Source: Armatimonadota bacterium
Lineage (GTDB): Bacteria > Armatimonadota > Fimbriimonadia > Fimbriimonadales > Fimbriimonadaceae
Assembly: GCA_022563855.1 (NCBI GenBank)
Contig: JADFMN010000007.1
Location: 1-64,000, forward strand
DNA length: 64,000 bases
Direction of reading: 5' to 3'
Positions 26,905-46,081 of this stretch are shown in pieces. Below the pieces are notes generated by a model. The model saw only the letters and a list, made by a program, of their open reading frames with translations. It ran no database searches and was not told where the DNA came from. Within the stretch, counting starts at the first letter, position 1; each line of letters starts with the position of its first letter. Position numbers and translations under genes: made by a program.

Positions 26905-27513
26905 ATGGCGAACGTTGTCGAACTCTGGAACGAGGTCTTGCCCGAGATTCGTGATGGTGTCACAGGCGTTGGCGTCTGGACTGCGCTAAACGGTTGCAAG
27001 CCAATAGTGCTGGAGGACGGAACACTGGTGCTAGGGCTGGGTCACGACGACAGCGACCTTATAGGCCACCTGCGCCTGCCTCGCACCCGACAGGTGATCG
27101 AGACCGTCGTCGGGCGCGAGCTGAAGGCCAAGGTGACCCTGAGGGTCATCAGCGGTGTTGGCCAAGAAGACTGGGAGAACGAAAAGCGCGGCGACGTCGA
27201 GCGAGAGAAGCTACAGGCATCGACGCACAAAAGAGTCACCGCCGAGGCGGTTGCAAGGAAAAGTTGGGACGGCCTGTACGAACTGTTGGGCAAGAGGTTC
27301 AACGAGATGTCGAACCGCACTCTGCCACAAACTCGGGCGCGGTATTTCCTCGATGCCGTAGAAATCCTCGCGGACGCGCTGATCGAAACGCCGGTCGCGG
27401 ACGAATTGGAAGAACGAAGCTTCGCCCGGTGCATCGAGCGCGTGTCCCAATACAGCGACCTGCCGAGCACGCTGGTAGCCATGAGGGTGCTCGAAAAGGC
27501 CTTCGAACAGTGA
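26905..27513 (+). CDS. Protein with possible DnaA domain I-like N-terminus
   Basis: 202 residues. The first ~90 (VELWNEVLPEIRDGVTGVGVWTALNGCKPIVLEDGTLVLGLGHDDSDLIGHLRLPRTRQVIETVVGRELKAKVTLRVI) follow the order of DnaA domain I: LWNEVL helix, a W in the second helix, an LxLxxxxD strand turn, then xxxIETVxGRELK. The remainder is helical (WDGLYELLGKRFNEMSNR..RARYFLDAVEILADALI). DnaA domain I mediates oligomerisation and DnaB contact; a shared fold here is inference. The stop overlaps the GTG of the MBL hydrolase. Confidence 0.5.
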   Translation: MANVVELWNEVLPEIRDGVTGVGVWTALNGCKPIVLEDGTLVLGLGHDDSDLIGHLRLPRTRQVIETVVGRELKAKVTLRVISGVGQEDWENEKRGDVEREKLQASTHKRVTAEAVARKSWDGLYELLGKRFNEMSNRTLPQTRARYFLDAVEILADALIETPVADELEERSFARCIERVSQYSDLPSTLVAMRVLEKAFEQ

Positions 27514-28674: not shown

Positions 28675-29457
28675 ATGCCACTGACACAAGATCAGCTTCA
28701 GAGATCGTGGGTTGAGTTCAAGGTCTACAAAGACCCTCAGGCCCGCGTCTCACTGATCAACCACTACTCCTACCTCGTCAAGATCACGGCTGGCAGGCTC
28801 GTAACGACCTTCCCCGGCGGGCTCGACCGGGAAGACTTGATCGGCAACGGCGTCATCGGACTTATCAAGAGCGTGGACCAGTACGATCCGACTCGCGACG
28901 TGAAGTTCGAGACTTACGCAATCGCGCTCATTCGCGGCGCCATCCTCGAAATGCTGCGAGACCAGGACTGGGTTCCACGATCAATTCGCGAAAAGATGAA
29001 GGCTGTGACCAAGGCCCAGCGAAAGCTCGAGCCTGGGTTGGGTCGCGAACCTACCGCAAGAGAGATCTCTGAGGAGATCGGTATGGTCGAGCACGACGTC
29101 AGCAACATCTTGGTGCGCATGGGGCGCACCAACGTGTACAGCCTGGACGACGTGGTGGGAGGCACCGGAGGAGGCGACGAGAGCATTCGGTTCGTCGACA
29201 TGATCGTCGATTCGGCTGCCGACACTGAGGAGCAGTCCGAAGGCCGCGAGCTGCGGCGAATCCTGGCTGCCGGAGTCGATCGCCTACCCGACCGCGAGCG
29301 ATTGGTCGTCGGCCTGTACTACTTCGAGGGACTGACCTTCAAAGAGATCGGCAAGGTGCTCGGAGTCAGCGAGAGTCGCGTCTACCAACTGCACACCCAG
29401 GCGATGGGGAGGCTGAGGAGCTTCATGCAGGAGCAAGGATCCGCGAACGTCAGGTGA
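28675..29457 (+). CDS. fliA: FliA/WhiG-type sigma-28 factor
   Basis: 260 residues. Region 2 reads HYSYLVKITAGRLVTTFPGGLDREDLIGNGVIGLIKSVDQYDPTRDVKFETYAIALIRGAILEMLRDQDWVPRSIREK. Region 3 includes REISEEIGMVEHDVSNIL, and region 4 is LPDRERLVVGLYYFEGLTFKEIGKVLGVSESRVYQLHTQAMGRLR. The RGAILEMLRDQDWVPRS and TFKEIGKVLGVSESRVYQLH signatures are specific for FliA. GGAG stands 8 nt before the ATG. It would direct late flagellar genes such as motAB (46 kb); its likely anti-sigma factor FlgM is encoded at 48.3 kb. Confidence 0.93.
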   Translation: MPLTQDQLQRSWVEFKVYKDPQARVSLINHYSYLVKITAGRLVTTFPGGLDREDLIGNGVIGLIKSVDQYDPTRDVKFETYAIALIRGAILEMLRDQDWVPRSIREKMKAVTKAQRKLEPGLGREPTAREISEEIGMVEHDVSNILVRMGRTNVYSLDDVVGGTGGGDESIRFVDMIVDSAADTEEQSEGRELRRILAAGVDRLPDRERLVVGLYYFEGLTFKEIGKVLGVSESRVYQLHTQAMGRLRSFMQEQGSANVR

Positions 29458-29466
29458 GGATGAGGC

Positions 29467-29712
29467 ATGGCCGAATTCGACGGAGTTGGCAGGATCTTCC
29501 GGAAGGGACCAGACGTTCGCCCGGACAAGCACAAATCTGTTTCTCGGACTGACCGAGAGAAGCGGCGAAAGGAGGAGGGCAAAACCAAGGATGAACCGCA
29601 CGACACCGTCGAATTGCACGCCGATGACGATGCGCCCGAGGATGAGGCGGCAGAGTCCGCTTCACATCAAGACCAACCTGAGGCGGAAGAGGGATTCGAC
29701 ATTTCCGCCTAG
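29467..29712 (+). CDS. Small charged protein following fliA
   Basis: 81 residues, no hydrophobic segment. The first half is basic (RIFRKGPDVRPDKHKSVSRTDREKRRKEEGK) and the second very acidic (DTVELHADDDAPEDEAAESASHQDQPEAEEGFDIS). It starts 9 nt after the fliA stop with GAGGATGAGG in front, so it belongs to the same transcript. Likely disordered; no family is recognised. Confidence 0.55.
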   Translation: MAEFDGVGRIFRKGPDVRPDKHKSVSRTDREKRRKEEGKTKDEPHDTVELHADDDAPEDEAAESASHQDQPEAEEGFDISA

Positions 29713-33189: not shown

Positions 33190-34461
33190 TTAATTCCTCC
33201 GGTACCTCAAAAACGTCTCGTCTCCAACCGTTTTGCTCGTCACCAGCCGGAACCGCAGCATGTCGCCAGCCGACAGCGGAGTTCCGTCTGCAATCGTTGG
33301 CACTCGCCTGCCGAGCTTCACTTTCGGAGCCACGGTCAAGAATAGCTCATCGACACAGTCACATGAGAACAGCTGGGCGTTCAGCTCGCTTCCGCCCTCG
33401 ACGAGCAGCGTCACGATGCCAAGCTCGACTCTCAAGAACTTCAGCAGGTCAGCGATGTCGACTTGATCACCTGGAAACTGCTCCGTCCTGGCGCTCTGAC
33501 CTAGGCGAGCCGCTCCTGAAGCGGTCGTTGCGACGATCGCGCGATCTGGCGCGTCGGTGAAGAACCTGCCGTCCACGGGAATTTGTCCGCTGCCCGTTAC
33601 GACGATACGCCACAGATGCTCGGCGTACCACAGTCCCGGCGTCGCTCTCAGCGAGCCGGCGCCGATGAGGACTGCATCGACAGCGCCCTCAATTTGCCGC
33701 ATGGTCGCGTGATCGGTTTCGGAGCCGAGGTCCGCGACCGGCTCGTCGCGCTCTCCGGTGACGGACTTGCCGTCCAGCGTGGAGACCATGTTCATGACGA
33801 CGTAAGGTCGCCCTTCAGGCGGCGCGCCCCACTGTAGACACGCGTAAACCCCGACCTGCGAATCCAGCGACAGCTCCCGCCGAATCGCCTGCTCGATGCA
33901 GGCATAAGGCTGTTCGGCGAGTCGCTCGTCGCCGACGAAGAACGTCGGAACGTAGTACACGCCCGACTCGTACGCTGGCTGATCGAACTCGATGATTCTC
34001 TCTGCGAACTCGCGCCGCTCGATCGACCTCTTCATGGCCTGCACGTCAGGCACGAGATCGGCGGCAAGCTTGGCAAGGACGTCGGGCGATTCGATACTCA
34101 GGCCCAGCTCCCAATGCGCCTCGTAAATCCGCTCGACGAGATCGTCCTGTACTCCGTGCAGCTTCGCAAATTCAACGGCTTCATGCGCGTTGTGCGTTGA
34201 TGTCGGCTTCGGTCGTTCGATCGACGGCGGAGGGAGTCCGTCTACGGTATAGGCAAGCTCAAGCCGAGTCGGGATCGACGGTCTCCGAGGGTCGCGCTCG
34301 ATATGGCGCATTGGAGGAGGGGTGAGCGACGGAGGCCAAAGGTCGTACGCCCTCCACTCGATGGCGACGCCGAAGTCGCAGACCAGGCGACGTGCCTGCT
34401 GCTGGCCTATCCAGCACCATGGGCATGTGAAATCGTGCGCGACCGGCACCACGAGGCTCAT
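33190..34461 (-). CDS. Fusion: FrnE-like DsbA oxidoreductase + RibD C-terminal reductase
   Basis: 423 residues in two unrelated parts. Residues 1-~205 are a DsbA/FrnE thioredoxin fold with the active site DFTCPWCWIGQQQARRL and the terminal GVYYVPTFFVGDERLAEQPYACIEQAI (cis-Pro VPTF). Residues ~215-423 are a RibD_C/dihydrofolate-reductase-like domain: PYVVMNMVSTLDGKSVTGERDEPVADLGSETDHATMRQIEGAVDAVLIGAGSLRAT and LLVEGGSELNAQLFSCDCVDELFLTVAPKVKLG. There is no stop or frame change between them. CACAAT lies 6 nt before the ATG. I do not know this combination. Confidence 0.8.
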   Translation of the reverse strand: MSLVVPVAHDFTCPWCWIGQQQARRLVCDFGVAIEWRAYDLWPPSLTPPPMRHIERDPRRPSIPTRLELAYTVDGLPPPSIERPKPTSTHNAHEAVEFAKLHGVQDDLVERIYEAHWELGLSIESPDVLAKLAADLVPDVQAMKRSIERREFAERIIEFDQPAYESGVYYVPTFFVGDERLAEQPYACIEQAIRRELSLDSQVGVYACLQWGAPPEGRPYVVMNMVSTLDGKSVTGERDEPVADLGSETDHATMRQIEGAVDAVLIGAGSLRATPGLWYAEHLWRIVVTGSGQIPVDGRFFTDAPDRAIVATTASGAARLGQSARTEQFPGDQVDIADLLKFLRVELGIVTLLVEGGSELNAQLFSCDCVDELFLTVAPKVKLGRRVPTIADGTPLSAGDMLRFRLVTSKTVGDETFLRYRRN

Positions 34462-34517: not shown

Positions 34518-35807
34518 CTAGGCGGCGCGTCCTGGTTGTTCAGGGCCTGGCTTTTCGCCGGAGGACCGCCCCGCCGCTTTCGCTAGAAGGTCCGCGACCG
34601 ACGAGCCGTCATCAGGCACGGTTGCGTACCCGATCGAAGCGATAATCGCTCGATTCGGCGCGACCCTTCCAGCGAGCCACTGGCCAAACTTTCGCCCCAG
34701 TCGTTCGCTGACGATCTCGACGCTCGCTCCGGTAGCTGGCAGGATGACGCCAAATCCCACGTCCCCGACACGGCAAACGATGTCCATATTCCGGACCACG
34801 TCCTTGAGCAGGTTCGCCGCATCGGTCAGAAAGTCTCGAACCGACTGGTCGCCGTAGAACGAGGCTAGCGATTCAAGCCCATCAAATTTGACTATCACGA
34901 CTGACAGCGTCTCATTCGATCCCGCGATTCGGTGAATCTCCTCTGTCAGACGACCCAAGAAATACCTTTCGTTGTAAACGCCGCTGTCCAGGTCCAGCAC
35001 GTCGCCGCTGAGCTGCACTTCGCCCCGTTGGAGGATCCGGTCCAGTTCGTCCTCCGATGTGAGTATTCTGCGCAGCTTCGCGAGCGACTGCCTCAATATG
35101 TGGGAAACGTAATTGCAAGAAATCCCCAACAGATTTGCGATCTCAGTTTGTGACAGTGCATCGAAGTGGAAAAGGACGAGCACTTGGCGCTCGAGGTCCC
35201 GCAACTGCTGCATCGCCGTGTCCAAGACCACGCGTTCTTCGACCGAAAGCTGATCCGGCTCGAACACGGCAGCGTCGAGCTTGTCGACGTCGCTCTCACC
35301 GTCTTCGTCGTCGCCCATCGACATGTCGAGAGATCCGACGCGCAGCAGCTCTTGCGTTGCGATCACTTCTCGGACGGCAGACTCGCTGACGCCGATGGTC
35401 TCCGCAATCTCCCGCTCGCTGGGCGGCTCTCCGCTGACCGCGTGGAGCATCGTTGCGGCCTTGTGGACCTTGTGGCGAAGCTCTTGCAGCCAGGCAGGCT
35501 GACGGATCGTCTGCGACCGGTCGCGCAGGTAGTGCTTGATCTCTCCGGCTACCAGGTGCGTCGCGTACGTGTTGAAGCGCACCCCAGCCGAAGGATCGAA
35601 CTTGCTCAAGGCGTTCAGGAGCCCGATATAGCCGACCTGGACGAGATCGTCTTCGTGCTCTAGTCCCTTGAATCGCCTTGCGATCCGCTCGACCATCGGT
35701 GAGTATTGAACGATGATCAAGTCCTTGAGGTCGTCCCTGGGATTGTCCAGGAACTGCACCACAAGCTGTTCTCCGTCGTCTTTTTGTCGCGGTATTCCTT
35801 CAGACAT
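34518..35807 (-). CDS. Sigma-70 family factor fused to a degenerate GGDEF domain
   Basis: 429 residues. Residues ~20-255 are a complete SigB/SigF/FliA-type sigma factor: region 2 (YSPMVERIARRFKGLEHEDDLVQVGYIGLLNALSKFDPSAGVRFNTYATHLVAGEIKHYLRDRSQTIRQPAWLQEL), region 3 (SEREIAETIGVSESAVREVI) and region 4 (LRDLERQVLVLFHFDALSQTEIANLLGISCNYVSHILRQSLAKLR). Residues ~275-415 fit a GGDEF domain (DLDSGVYNERYFLGRLTEEIHR...SVVIVKFDGLESLASFYGDQSVRDFLTDAANLLKDVVRNMDIVCRVGDVGFGVILPA). The active-site GGDEF is replaced by GDVGF (residues ~348-352), so diguanylate cyclase activity is unlikely and a sensory or binding role is inferred. pilC is the next gene upstream on the same strand. Confidence 0.85.
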   Translation of the reverse strand: MSEGIPRQKDDGEQLVVQFLDNPRDDLKDLIIVQYSPMVERIARRFKGLEHEDDLVQVGYIGLLNALSKFDPSAGVRFNTYATHLVAGEIKHYLRDRSQTIRQPAWLQELRHKVHKAATMLHAVSGEPPSEREIAETIGVSESAVREVIATQELLRVGSLDMSMGDDEDGESDVDKLDAAVFEPDQLSVEERVVLDTAMQQLRDLERQVLVLFHFDALSQTEIANLLGISCNYVSHILRQSLAKLRRILTSEDELDRILQRGEVQLSGDVLDLDSGVYNERYFLGRLTEEIHRIAGSNETLSVVIVKFDGLESLASFYGDQSVRDFLTDAANLLKDVVRNMDIVCRVGDVGFGVILPATGASVEIVSERLGRKFGQWLAGRVAPNRAIIASIGYATVPDDGSSVADLLAKAAGRSSGEKPGPEQPGRAA

Positions 35808-35925: not shown

Positions 35926-37131
35926 CTAGTTCACGCTGTTGACGAGCTTGAAGATCGGAGTCATAACCGAGATCGCGATGAATCCGACGACGCCGCCCAG
36001 GAAGATGATGAGCATCGGCTCGATCATCGAGGTCAGGCCCTTGACCGTCGCATCAACCTCGGAGTCGTAGAAATCGCCGACCTTGACCAGCATCTCCGCC
36101 AATCGGCCGGTCTCTTCTCCGACGTCGATCATGTGCGTCACCATCACCGGGAACAGACCAGTCGCGGCGAGCGGGTCGGACAGCTTCTGGCCCTCTCGGA
36201 TCGCGTCGCGCGTCTGCTCGATCGCCTCATGCAAGACGAGGTTGCCGAGGGTCTCGCCAGTGATCTCCAGTCCGCGCATCATCGGTACTCCCGAGTTGAG
36301 CAAAGTTCCAAAGGTTCGACAGAACCGGGCAATGCTCATCTTGAGCGTCAGCTCACCGACGATCGGCATTTTCAGCTTGAAGTAATCGATCTGGTACCGA
36401 CCGCGAGCCGTTTTTCCGTACACCTTGGTTCCTATCACGATGCCTCCTGCGGCGAGGAGGATGACCCACCAGAACTTCGCCATGAAGTCGCCGAACGAGA
36501 ACAGCGCAGCCGTTACCGCCGGCATCTCCACTTTCATTCCGTCGAAGATCGCCTTGAACTTCGGCAGAACGAAGCTGAACAGAACCATCAGCATGATGGC
36601 CGAGAAAATGATGACGAGCACGGGGTACATCATCGCGCCCTTGATCTTGGCCCGCACATCTGCCTCGTACTCAAGGAAGCCGGACAGCCGATCGAGAATG
36701 ACGTCCAGTAGGCCGCCGAGCTCTGCAGCCCGAACCATGTTGACGTAGAGCTTGTTGAACACCCCGGGGTGCTTTACCATGGAGTCGCTGAGCGTCATGC
36801 CACCCTTAACGTCGCTCGTCACGGATTCGAGAGCGGGCTTTAACGCTTGATCTTTCGTCTGAGAAGACAGGATCTCAAGGCACCGCAGAATCGGAATTCC
36901 GGCGTCGATCATCGTTGCAAACTGGCGAGAGAACACGACAAGCGCCTTCGCCTTCATCTTCTTCTTGCCGAACGAGACAGGCCCTTTCCTCTTCTTGGTC
37001 ATGCGCACATCGACGATCCGCATGGACTGCTCTCGCAGTTTATTGAGAACCAAGGCCTCGTTGTCAGCTTCCATGACGGATTTGACCGTCTTCCCGTTTG
37101 CATCTATGGCTGTGTACGCAAAGTGTGGCAT
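35926..37131 (-). CDS. pilC: Type IV pilus / type II secretion inner-membrane protein PilC (GspF family)
   Basis: 401 residues, full length. Two T2SSF domains: FSRQFATMIDAGIPILRCLEILSSQTKDQALKPALESVTSDVKGGMTLSDSM and FCRTFGTLLNSGVPMMRGLEITGETLGNLVLHEAIEQTRDAIREGQKLSDPL, each followed by membrane helices. PilC is the platform protein for pilus assembly, turned by the PilB/PilT ATPases, which are not in the window. AAGGG before the ATG gives a normal ribosome-binding site. The 118-nt gap to the sigma-GGDEF gene (35808-35925) holds nothing I can name. Confidence 0.93.
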   Translation of the reverse strand: MPHFAYTAIDANGKTVKSVMEADNEALVLNKLREQSMRIVDVRMTKKRKGPVSFGKKKMKAKALVVFSRQFATMIDAGIPILRCLEILSSQTKDQALKPALESVTSDVKGGMTLSDSMVKHPGVFNKLYVNMVRAAELGGLLDVILDRLSGFLEYEADVRAKIKGAMMYPVLVIIFSAIMLMVLFSFVLPKFKAIFDGMKVEMPAVTAALFSFGDFMAKFWWVILLAAGGIVIGTKVYGKTARGRYQIDYFKLKMPIVGELTLKMSIARFCRTFGTLLNSGVPMMRGLEITGETLGNLVLHEAIEQTRDAIREGQKLSDPLAATGLFPVMVTHMIDVGEETGRLAEMLVKVGDFYDSEVDATVKGLTSMIEPMLIIFLGGVVGFIAISVMTPIFKLVNSVN

Positions 37132-39204: not shown

Positions 39205-39298
39205 GTAGCCGCATGCTTCAGCTTGCGCGGTCTGCCGCCGACTTCCATTTGAAGGCACGGACCGATACGCCCGGACGCAACCTAAAGGATGCGGCTAC
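39205..39298. mobile_element. REPIN-like element adjoining the RAYT gene
   Basis: A 94-bp element with a left arm GTAGCCGCATGCTTCAGC and a right arm CCTAAAGGATGCGGCTAC in inverted orientation. It has the same length and arms as 9596-9689. A half-REP (GGATGCGGTTACAG) lies just upstream near 39150. Confidence 0.8.
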
Positions 39299-39324
39299 GT
39301 TTTGCGGCTACAATTATCGGAGAC

Positions 39325-39798
39325 GTGAGACCGAGGGAGAAGCGCCACCGATTAGAACCCGAAGCGTACAAAGGAAATGCAACCGTTTCCTTTACCGCAT
39401 GCATCAAGGACCACCGTCGCCCATTCGTTTGCCACAAGCGAACAGCACAGCACGTCGAGTTCTTGGCAAAGGCTGTGGCCACAGAAAACTGCGGCGTCCT
39501 TATCTACTGCTTCATGCCCGACCATTTGCATGCGATAATCACTGGCCGGACAGCTGAATCCGACGTCAAGAAAGCATTCGAGAGGTTTAAGCAGGTGTCT
39601 GCGTTCAATCTTAGGAAAGAAGGGCTTGCCTGGCAGAAAGACTTTCACGACCGCGTCGTTCGCAAGAGCGAGGATCTCGACGCAATCGCAAGCTACGTTA
39701 GTGAGAATCCGATCAGGGCCGGTCTGGCGGACTCACCGTTTGAGTACCACGGTATCGGATCAATCGGATACGACCTGAAAGAAGTGCTGATCGGATGA
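39325..39798 (+). CDS. REP-associated tyrosine transposase (RAYT, TnpA_REP family)
   Basis: 157 residues from GTG 39325. The Y1/HUH signature is YCFMPDHLHAIITG (HxH metal ligands), and the catalytic tyrosine lies in the C-terminal helix IASYVSENPIRAGLADSP, which is the RAYT form of the motif. VSFTACIKDHRRPFV is the usual N-terminal strand. RAYTs cut and join single-stranded REP DNA. An ATG at 39289 lies inside the REPIN and is a less likely start; TACAAT (39309-39314) precedes GTG 39325 by 10 nt. REP copies flank the gene on both sides. Confidence 0.88.
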   Translation: MRPREKRHRLEPEAYKGNATVSFTACIKDHRRPFVCHKRTAQHVEFLAKAVATENCGVLIYCFMPDHLHAIITGRTAESDVKKAFERFKQVSAFNLRKEGLAWQKDFHDRVVRKSEDLDAIASYVSENPIRAGLADSPFEYHGIGSIGYDLKEVLIG

Positions 39799-45991: not shown

Positions 45992-46081
45992 GGGTAAGCA
46001 ATTGGAGTGCGGAAGCCGACAATCTCTACTATAAGGACGCAACTCCCCAACGATGTGGAGTTGTGCCCGACATTACGAGCG

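Follow-up and report, generated by a model that had tools for sequence, protein, structure and literature searches.

Sigma factors are normally under the control of other proteins. In Streptomyces, c-di-GMP gates the alternative sigma factor WhiG via RsiG (PMC13232838, PMC10519070). Degenerate GGDEF domains are known as c-di-GMP receptors from PelD (PMC7288161, PMC10519070) and from PopA, where an RxxD I-site serves this function (PMC12564702). In PleD, one domain contributes R359, D362 and R390 to the inhibitory site around a c-di-GMP dimer, and the neighbouring domain adds R313 (PMC7288161); in another cyclase the neighbour's arginine comes from a different position (PMC8041772). Our literature search, which covered open-licence papers, found no description of a sigma factor with a GGDEF domain and no experimental work on c-di-GMP signalling in Armatimonadota. 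Here we consider an Armatimonadota gene in which a sigma factor and a GGDEF domain share one chain. We think it likely that its product, an alternative sigma factor, carries at its C-terminus a receptor domain for c-di-GMP that descends from a diguanylate cyclase.

A sigma factor-GGDEF fusion conserved in Armatimonadota

The gene lies in a stretch of 64,000 nucleotides, referred to here as the window. It is read on the minus strand from an ATG at 35807 to a stop at 34518-34520, and has these parts:

34518..35807, minus strand: sigma factor-GGDEF fusion gene, 429 residues; an uninterrupted open frame with Pfam sigma-70 regions 2, 3 and 4 plus GGDEF, conserved across the phylum
35070..35714, minus strand: sigma-70 regions 2-4, residues 32-246, from Pfam and alignment conservation
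34575..34985, minus strand: GGDEF domain (PF00990), residues 275-411, from Pfam (66 bits), a genome search that finds the same place, and a fold search

Pfam matches Sigma70_r2 (32-98), r3 (109-171), r4 (198-246) and GGDEF (275-411) in this order and above all cut-offs, in agreement with an earlier note, made from the DNA letters, that read the gene as a complete region 2-3-4 sigma factor in a single 429-residue frame. The same note had placed a GGDEF fold at the C-terminus and proposed a profile search of residues 260-429; that search gives GGDEF at 66.2 bits against a cut-off of 23.8. A whole-genome search finds seven GGDEF places in the source genome, among which the fusion ranks sixth by score. 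A single-sequence AlphaFold model made without an alignment is of low confidence (pLDDT 46 for the full length, 63 for the domain). It shows the GGDEF order of helices and strands, and the packing of the domains is not readable from it. With this low-confidence model as query, Foldseek ranks GGDEF structures at the top, including PleD with c-di-GMP.

By its profile matches the sigma part is an alternative factor of the sigma-70 family, with regions 2, 3 and 4 present in order. Region 2.4 (IKHYLRDRSQTIRQPAWLQEL) and helix 4.2 (QTEIANLLGISCNYVSH) are strongly conserved. Among NCBIfam models it is nearest to the SigB/SigF/SigG kind (TIGR02980), which it resembles at 176 bits while missing the curated membership cut-off of 234. 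The FliA/WhiG model (TIGR02479) gives only 118 bits against a curated cut-off of 190, below the SigB/SigF/SigG score, and a FliA/WhiG identity of the sigma part is not upheld. A separate FliA-like gene is present in the window at 28675.

The survey for the fusion covered Armatimonadota genomes. Each of the sixty family and order relatives has sigma matches, and in nearly all of them a single match covers both halves; identity is 69% within the genus, 50-66% for most of the family and 40-53% in the order. Within the class, 97 of 113 genomes carry the fusion (E < 1e-40). Of 201 genomes sampled evenly across the phylum, 156 match the protein at E < 1e-30. The match spans both domains in about 113 of the 201, as counted among the matches listed, with 33-43% identity in the other classes. 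A diverse alignment of 32 members is matched by the GGDEF model and the three sigma models in 32/32. In a FastTree phylogeny of GGDEF domains, a branch with support 99 separates the fusion domains from 45 cyclase domains, which were sampled from the window's class only.

Given that the fusion recurs in independent genomes, holds in every member of the alignment and occupies one side of the tree, it is neither a chance joining nor a frameshift, and the same recurrence rules out misassembly. This bears out the earlier reading of the frame as a fusion; the note had proposed a survey across Armatimonadota. The pattern fits a single origin with vertical descent, and shows that the fusion is ancient and maintained.

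Two other candidates were rejected. In one genus, frames of 871-884 residues looked like a triple PilC-sigma-GGDEF fusion; the upstream portion of these frames is pilC read out of frame and has no T2SSF match. An exact peptide-pattern scan of genome contigs for the fusion returned only L038, a Chloroflexi membrane protein (L038:5446-6717, chain-length-determinant-like by eye) with a degenerate GGDEF domain at its end and no sigma part.

Inhibitory and catalytic sites of the GGDEF domain

The fusion domain was aligned to PleD by phmmer (1w25 chain index plus one gives PleD numbering). R293, R339, D342 and R369 of the fusion correspond to PleD R313, R359, D362 and R390, and the sites discussed below are:

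34782..34793, minus strand: RxxD primary I-site, R339-N-M-D342 (PleD R359 and D362); RxxD in 93/95 homologues, invariant in the 32-member alignment
34929..34931, minus strand: R293 (PleD R313, the arginine from the neighbouring domain); 95/95 homologues against 11/45 intact cyclase domains
34701..34703, minus strand: R369 (PleD R390); 89/95 homologues
34752..34766, minus strand: GDVGF at residues 348-352, a degenerate catalytic motif where PleD has GGEEF, from the PleD alignment and homologue comparison

The GDVGF that had been noted in place of GGDEF aligns with GGEEF at PleD 368-372. Other catalytic positions are also changed in the window protein, with D327 replaced by K307, N335 by A315 and D344 by R324. 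As a control, these positions were counted in 95 fusion domains and in 45 intact cyclase domains from the same class; the cyclases were chosen by high profile score and are a canonical rather than a random sample. The GG[DE]EF loop is found in 45/45 cyclases and 0/95 fusions, the metal aspartate D327 in 45/45 and 14/95, and D344 in 45/45 and 29/95; N335, present in 45/45 cyclases, is not among the common residues in the fusions. The earlier description of the domain as catalytically dead is therefore well founded, as the loop, the metal aspartate and the guanine-binding residues are all lost.

The I-site shows the reverse pattern. RxxD is present in 93/95 fusion domains and 40/45 intact cyclases, R313 in 95/95 and 11/45, R390 in 89/95 and 38/45, and all four I-site residues in 87/95 and 8/45 (Fisher p 2e-18, a value that ignores shared ancestry). 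Since intact cyclases carry RxxD by itself about as often, the informative signal is the combination of RxxD with R313 and lost catalysis. Only two fusions, L099 and L102, have a broken RxxD, and they are among the most divergent. In the GGDEF half of the separately computed 32-member alignment (A1), the only invariant columns are R293, R339, D342 and P357; R369 is nearly invariant, and the domain is variable outside the I-site.

In these alignments no other feature of the domain is as conserved as the four-residue I-site. For this reason c-di-GMP, rather than GTP or another ligand, is the predicted ligand, and the simplest reading of the sequences is that a c-di-GMP pocket is why the domain was retained. 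At the sequence level the domain has what marks an I-site receptor of the PelD/PopA kind (RxxD with accessory arginines and a dead active site) and lacks what marks an active diguanylate cyclase (the GGDEF/GGEEF loop, absent in all 95, and the metal and guanine ligands). The earlier note had proposed a built-in nucleotide or protein sensor. The sensor idea stands, and is sharpened by the four retained residues to a predicted c-di-GMP receptor.

Gene neighbourhood, promoter and co-occurrence

Three further features of the window are relevant here:

35926..37131, minus strand: pilC (type IV pilus platform protein), a dedicated paralogue that precedes the fusion gene by 118 bases; T2SSF 208 bits
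37182..37213, minus strand: putative promoter of the pilC-sigma operon, CTACAG-N16-ATCCGATAATT, with a FliA-type -10 element; a conserved motif upstream of pilC
45994-46024, plus strand: FliA-type element GTAAGCAATTGGAGTGCGGAAGCCGACAATC just before motA-motB

In 71 of 105 loci, which range from the window's genus to other classes, the gene immediately before the fusion on the same strand is pilC. Deeper lineages also have a pilT-like ATPase gene and a secretin gene close by. The linked PilC forms a distinct orthologue group, scoring 480-690 bits to the window PilC in most lineages and about 350-460 bits in some deep or truncated cases; the other PilC paralogue scores about 335 bits. Given that the best PilC in the examined fusion-less genomes is the other paralogue (G062 was compared pairwise), the linked pilC and the fusion appear to have been lost as a pair. 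In one family (f17; loci L076, L078, L085, L089 and L096), pilC is on the opposite strand and divergent from the fusion gene.

The window contains, as had been reported, pilC next door, fliA at 28675 and motAB at 46-48 kb. The supposed flgM (29467-29709) has no match in Pfam. A link of the fusion to c-di-GMP and to pili or motility had also been proposed; the pilC linkage is phylum-wide, and the nearness of fliA and motAB is local. Other frames in the window were noted in passing. A DsbA-like thioredoxin domain (9-181) and a RibD C-terminal reductase domain (219-416) are joined in one frame at 33190-34461 (minus strand), a homologue of which adjoins the fusion gene in loci L109 and L112. At 39289-39798 (plus strand) there is a small transposase-like gene with a YCFMPDHLHAIITG motif, of the REP-associated tyrosine transposase type by eye, and a frame of 202 residues at 26905-27513 (plus strand), behind an RNase E/G-like gene, has no Pfam match.

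A shared element precedes pilC in 38 loci of the family (consensus GCCGACAATC). The motif CCGANAAT is present in 17 of the 33 non-redundant regions upstream in the family, compared with a mean of 0.4 and a maximum of 3 in 500 shuffles, and sits, with one exception, 46-71 bases before the pilC start. It was found on the other strand in none of the 33 regions, and not at the pilC-sigma junction. The FliA -10 consensus is GCCGATAA, which the element resembles; the -35 part is weak. The two-part pattern has six matches in the genome and none in the backward control, with sites upstream of the pilC-sigma pair, fliS and a PilZ protein gene, and the same -10 precedes motA in the window. From this sharing among pilC, motA, fliS and the PilZ gene, FliA probably transcribes the pilC-sigma pair in the window's family. 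We rejected the alternative that the fusion sigma owns the promoter; CCGAYAAT also stands before motA, fliS and the PilZ gene, which makes FliA the simpler owner, and is missing at the pilC-sigma junction.

Among 88 near-complete genomes of the class, 80 have the fusion and 8 do not. PilZ is found in 78 and FliG in 79 of the 80, and neither is found in any of the eight fusion-less genomes, which all belong to one genus. The fusion is lost together with flagella and PilZ receptors in this genus, perhaps in one or two events given that all eight losses sit there. GGDEF proteins are entirely absent from three of the eight, and type IV pilus PilC-type proteins are kept in all eight. Fimbriimonas ginsengisoli is described as non-motile (PMC4072686). 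Flagella as a universal partner of the fusion are contradicted by at least nine genomes of the phylum in which FliG is absent and a spanning fusion is present (G114, G117, G118, G122, G124, G128, G134, G143 and G145), so the association with flagella is local, and that with pili is general. The fusion sigma probably targets genes for type IV pili and surface behaviour.

Predicted mechanism and comparison with known systems

Judging from the retained I-site, it is quite probable that the GGDEF domain binds c-di-GMP. The ligand, probably an intercalated dimer, would be held by R339, D342 and R369 of one copy and R293 of a second, and would thereby bridge the GGDEF domains of two fusion chains. 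We suspect such bridging because the invariant R293 corresponds to the residue that the neighbour supplies in PleD, and we lean slightly towards dimerisation through c-di-GMP. The receptor reading also has in its favour the further GGDEF match in each of the 97 fusion-bearing genomes of the class, and the absence of PilZ and FliG from the eight near-complete genomes that lack the fusion. Bridging could mask the RNA polymerase-binding surfaces of the sigma part, such that high c-di-GMP holds sigma off and low c-di-GMP, the motile state, releases it. This last step is less certain, and as a whole we offer it tentatively, as a possibility about which some doubt is in order.

A c-di-GMP receptor of the opposite sign, in which ligand-driven dimerisation or rearrangement activates sigma at high c-di-GMP, would draw on the same I-site evidence, and pili and adhesion genes are frequently raised by c-di-GMP. 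However, a sigma factor acts as a monomer in the holoenzyme, and both the FliA-type promoter and the loss alongside flagella suit a regulator of the motile state; I-site cross-linking also immobilises the domains in PleD (PMC7288161). We regard activation at high c-di-GMP as possible, though rather unlikely.

The domain could instead be a partner-binding module that docks on active diguanylate cyclases or phosphodiesterases, in which case protein contact would control sigma and c-di-GMP would act only locally or be unbound. There is a precedent in Streptomyces, where RmdB uses its GGDEF domain to bind WhiG directly and to displace RsiG (PMC13232838). Potential partners are at hand as well, with at least two GGDEF matches (the fusion and another) in 97/97 fusion-bearing genomes of the class; two genomes of 1.5 Mb have exactly two, the fusion and one cyclase. 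By itself, however, docking leaves the invariance of the ligand-contacting arginines and aspartate unexplained, and we consider it unlikely.

A constitutive structural or autoinhibitory appendage that receives no small-molecule signal would suit a domain with a dead catalytic site and variable surroundings, but is improbable given that the I-site residues are invariant despite deep divergence (28-40% overall identity) in other classes. A sigma factor joined to a diguanylate cyclase that is active or binds GTP has the GGDEF fold in its favour and is scarcely credible with the metal aspartate, the guanine-binding residues and the loop (0/95) lost.

We return to a sigma factor that probably binds c-di-GMP itself. 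In the full form of this reading, on which we come down by a small degree on the favourable side, two sigma subunits would be bridged by a c-di-GMP dimer through a repurposed inhibitory site, in a single polypeptide ancestral to the phylum that takes the messenger to promoter choice without an anti-sigma factor; this would be the first case of a sigma factor serving as a c-di-GMP receptor itself. We know of no shorter route from c-di-GMP to a changed promoter choice than a sigma factor with its own second-messenger pocket. If true, the fusion would be a transcriptional arm of c-di-GMP signalling in Armatimonadota. From the conservation pattern comes a sharp prediction that involves four residues, and structural work could choose among the many proteins of a phylum-wide family.

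Compared with described systems, the fusion resembles PelD and PopA in its dead catalytic site and retained RxxD I-site. Their outputs are exopolysaccharide synthesis or cell-cycle proteolysis, and neither is part of a sigma factor; in the fusion, the position of R313 is also invariant, which points to bridging of two copies. The same four I-site residues are found in PleD, but PleD is an active cyclase, whereas the fusion retains the inhibitory site alone, with transcription as the output. RsiG-WhiG shares with the predicted role of the fusion an alternative sigma factor under c-di-GMP control. There, the ligand lies between sigma and a separate helical anti-sigma factor with EXXXSXXRXXXQXXXD motifs, a motif found in 0/102 fusion sequences and in none of the window's six frames; in the fusion, the predicted sensor has a GGDEF fold and shares the chain with a sigma part that is nearer to SigB/F/G. 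RmdB-WhiG likewise brings a GGDEF domain and an alternative sigma factor into contact (PMC13232838), although as two separate proteins and with the GGDEF domain part of a phosphodiesterase. By analogy, the fusion would combine in one chain what is divided among the partners of WhiG, the hold of c-di-GMP on sigma and the contact of a GGDEF domain with it.
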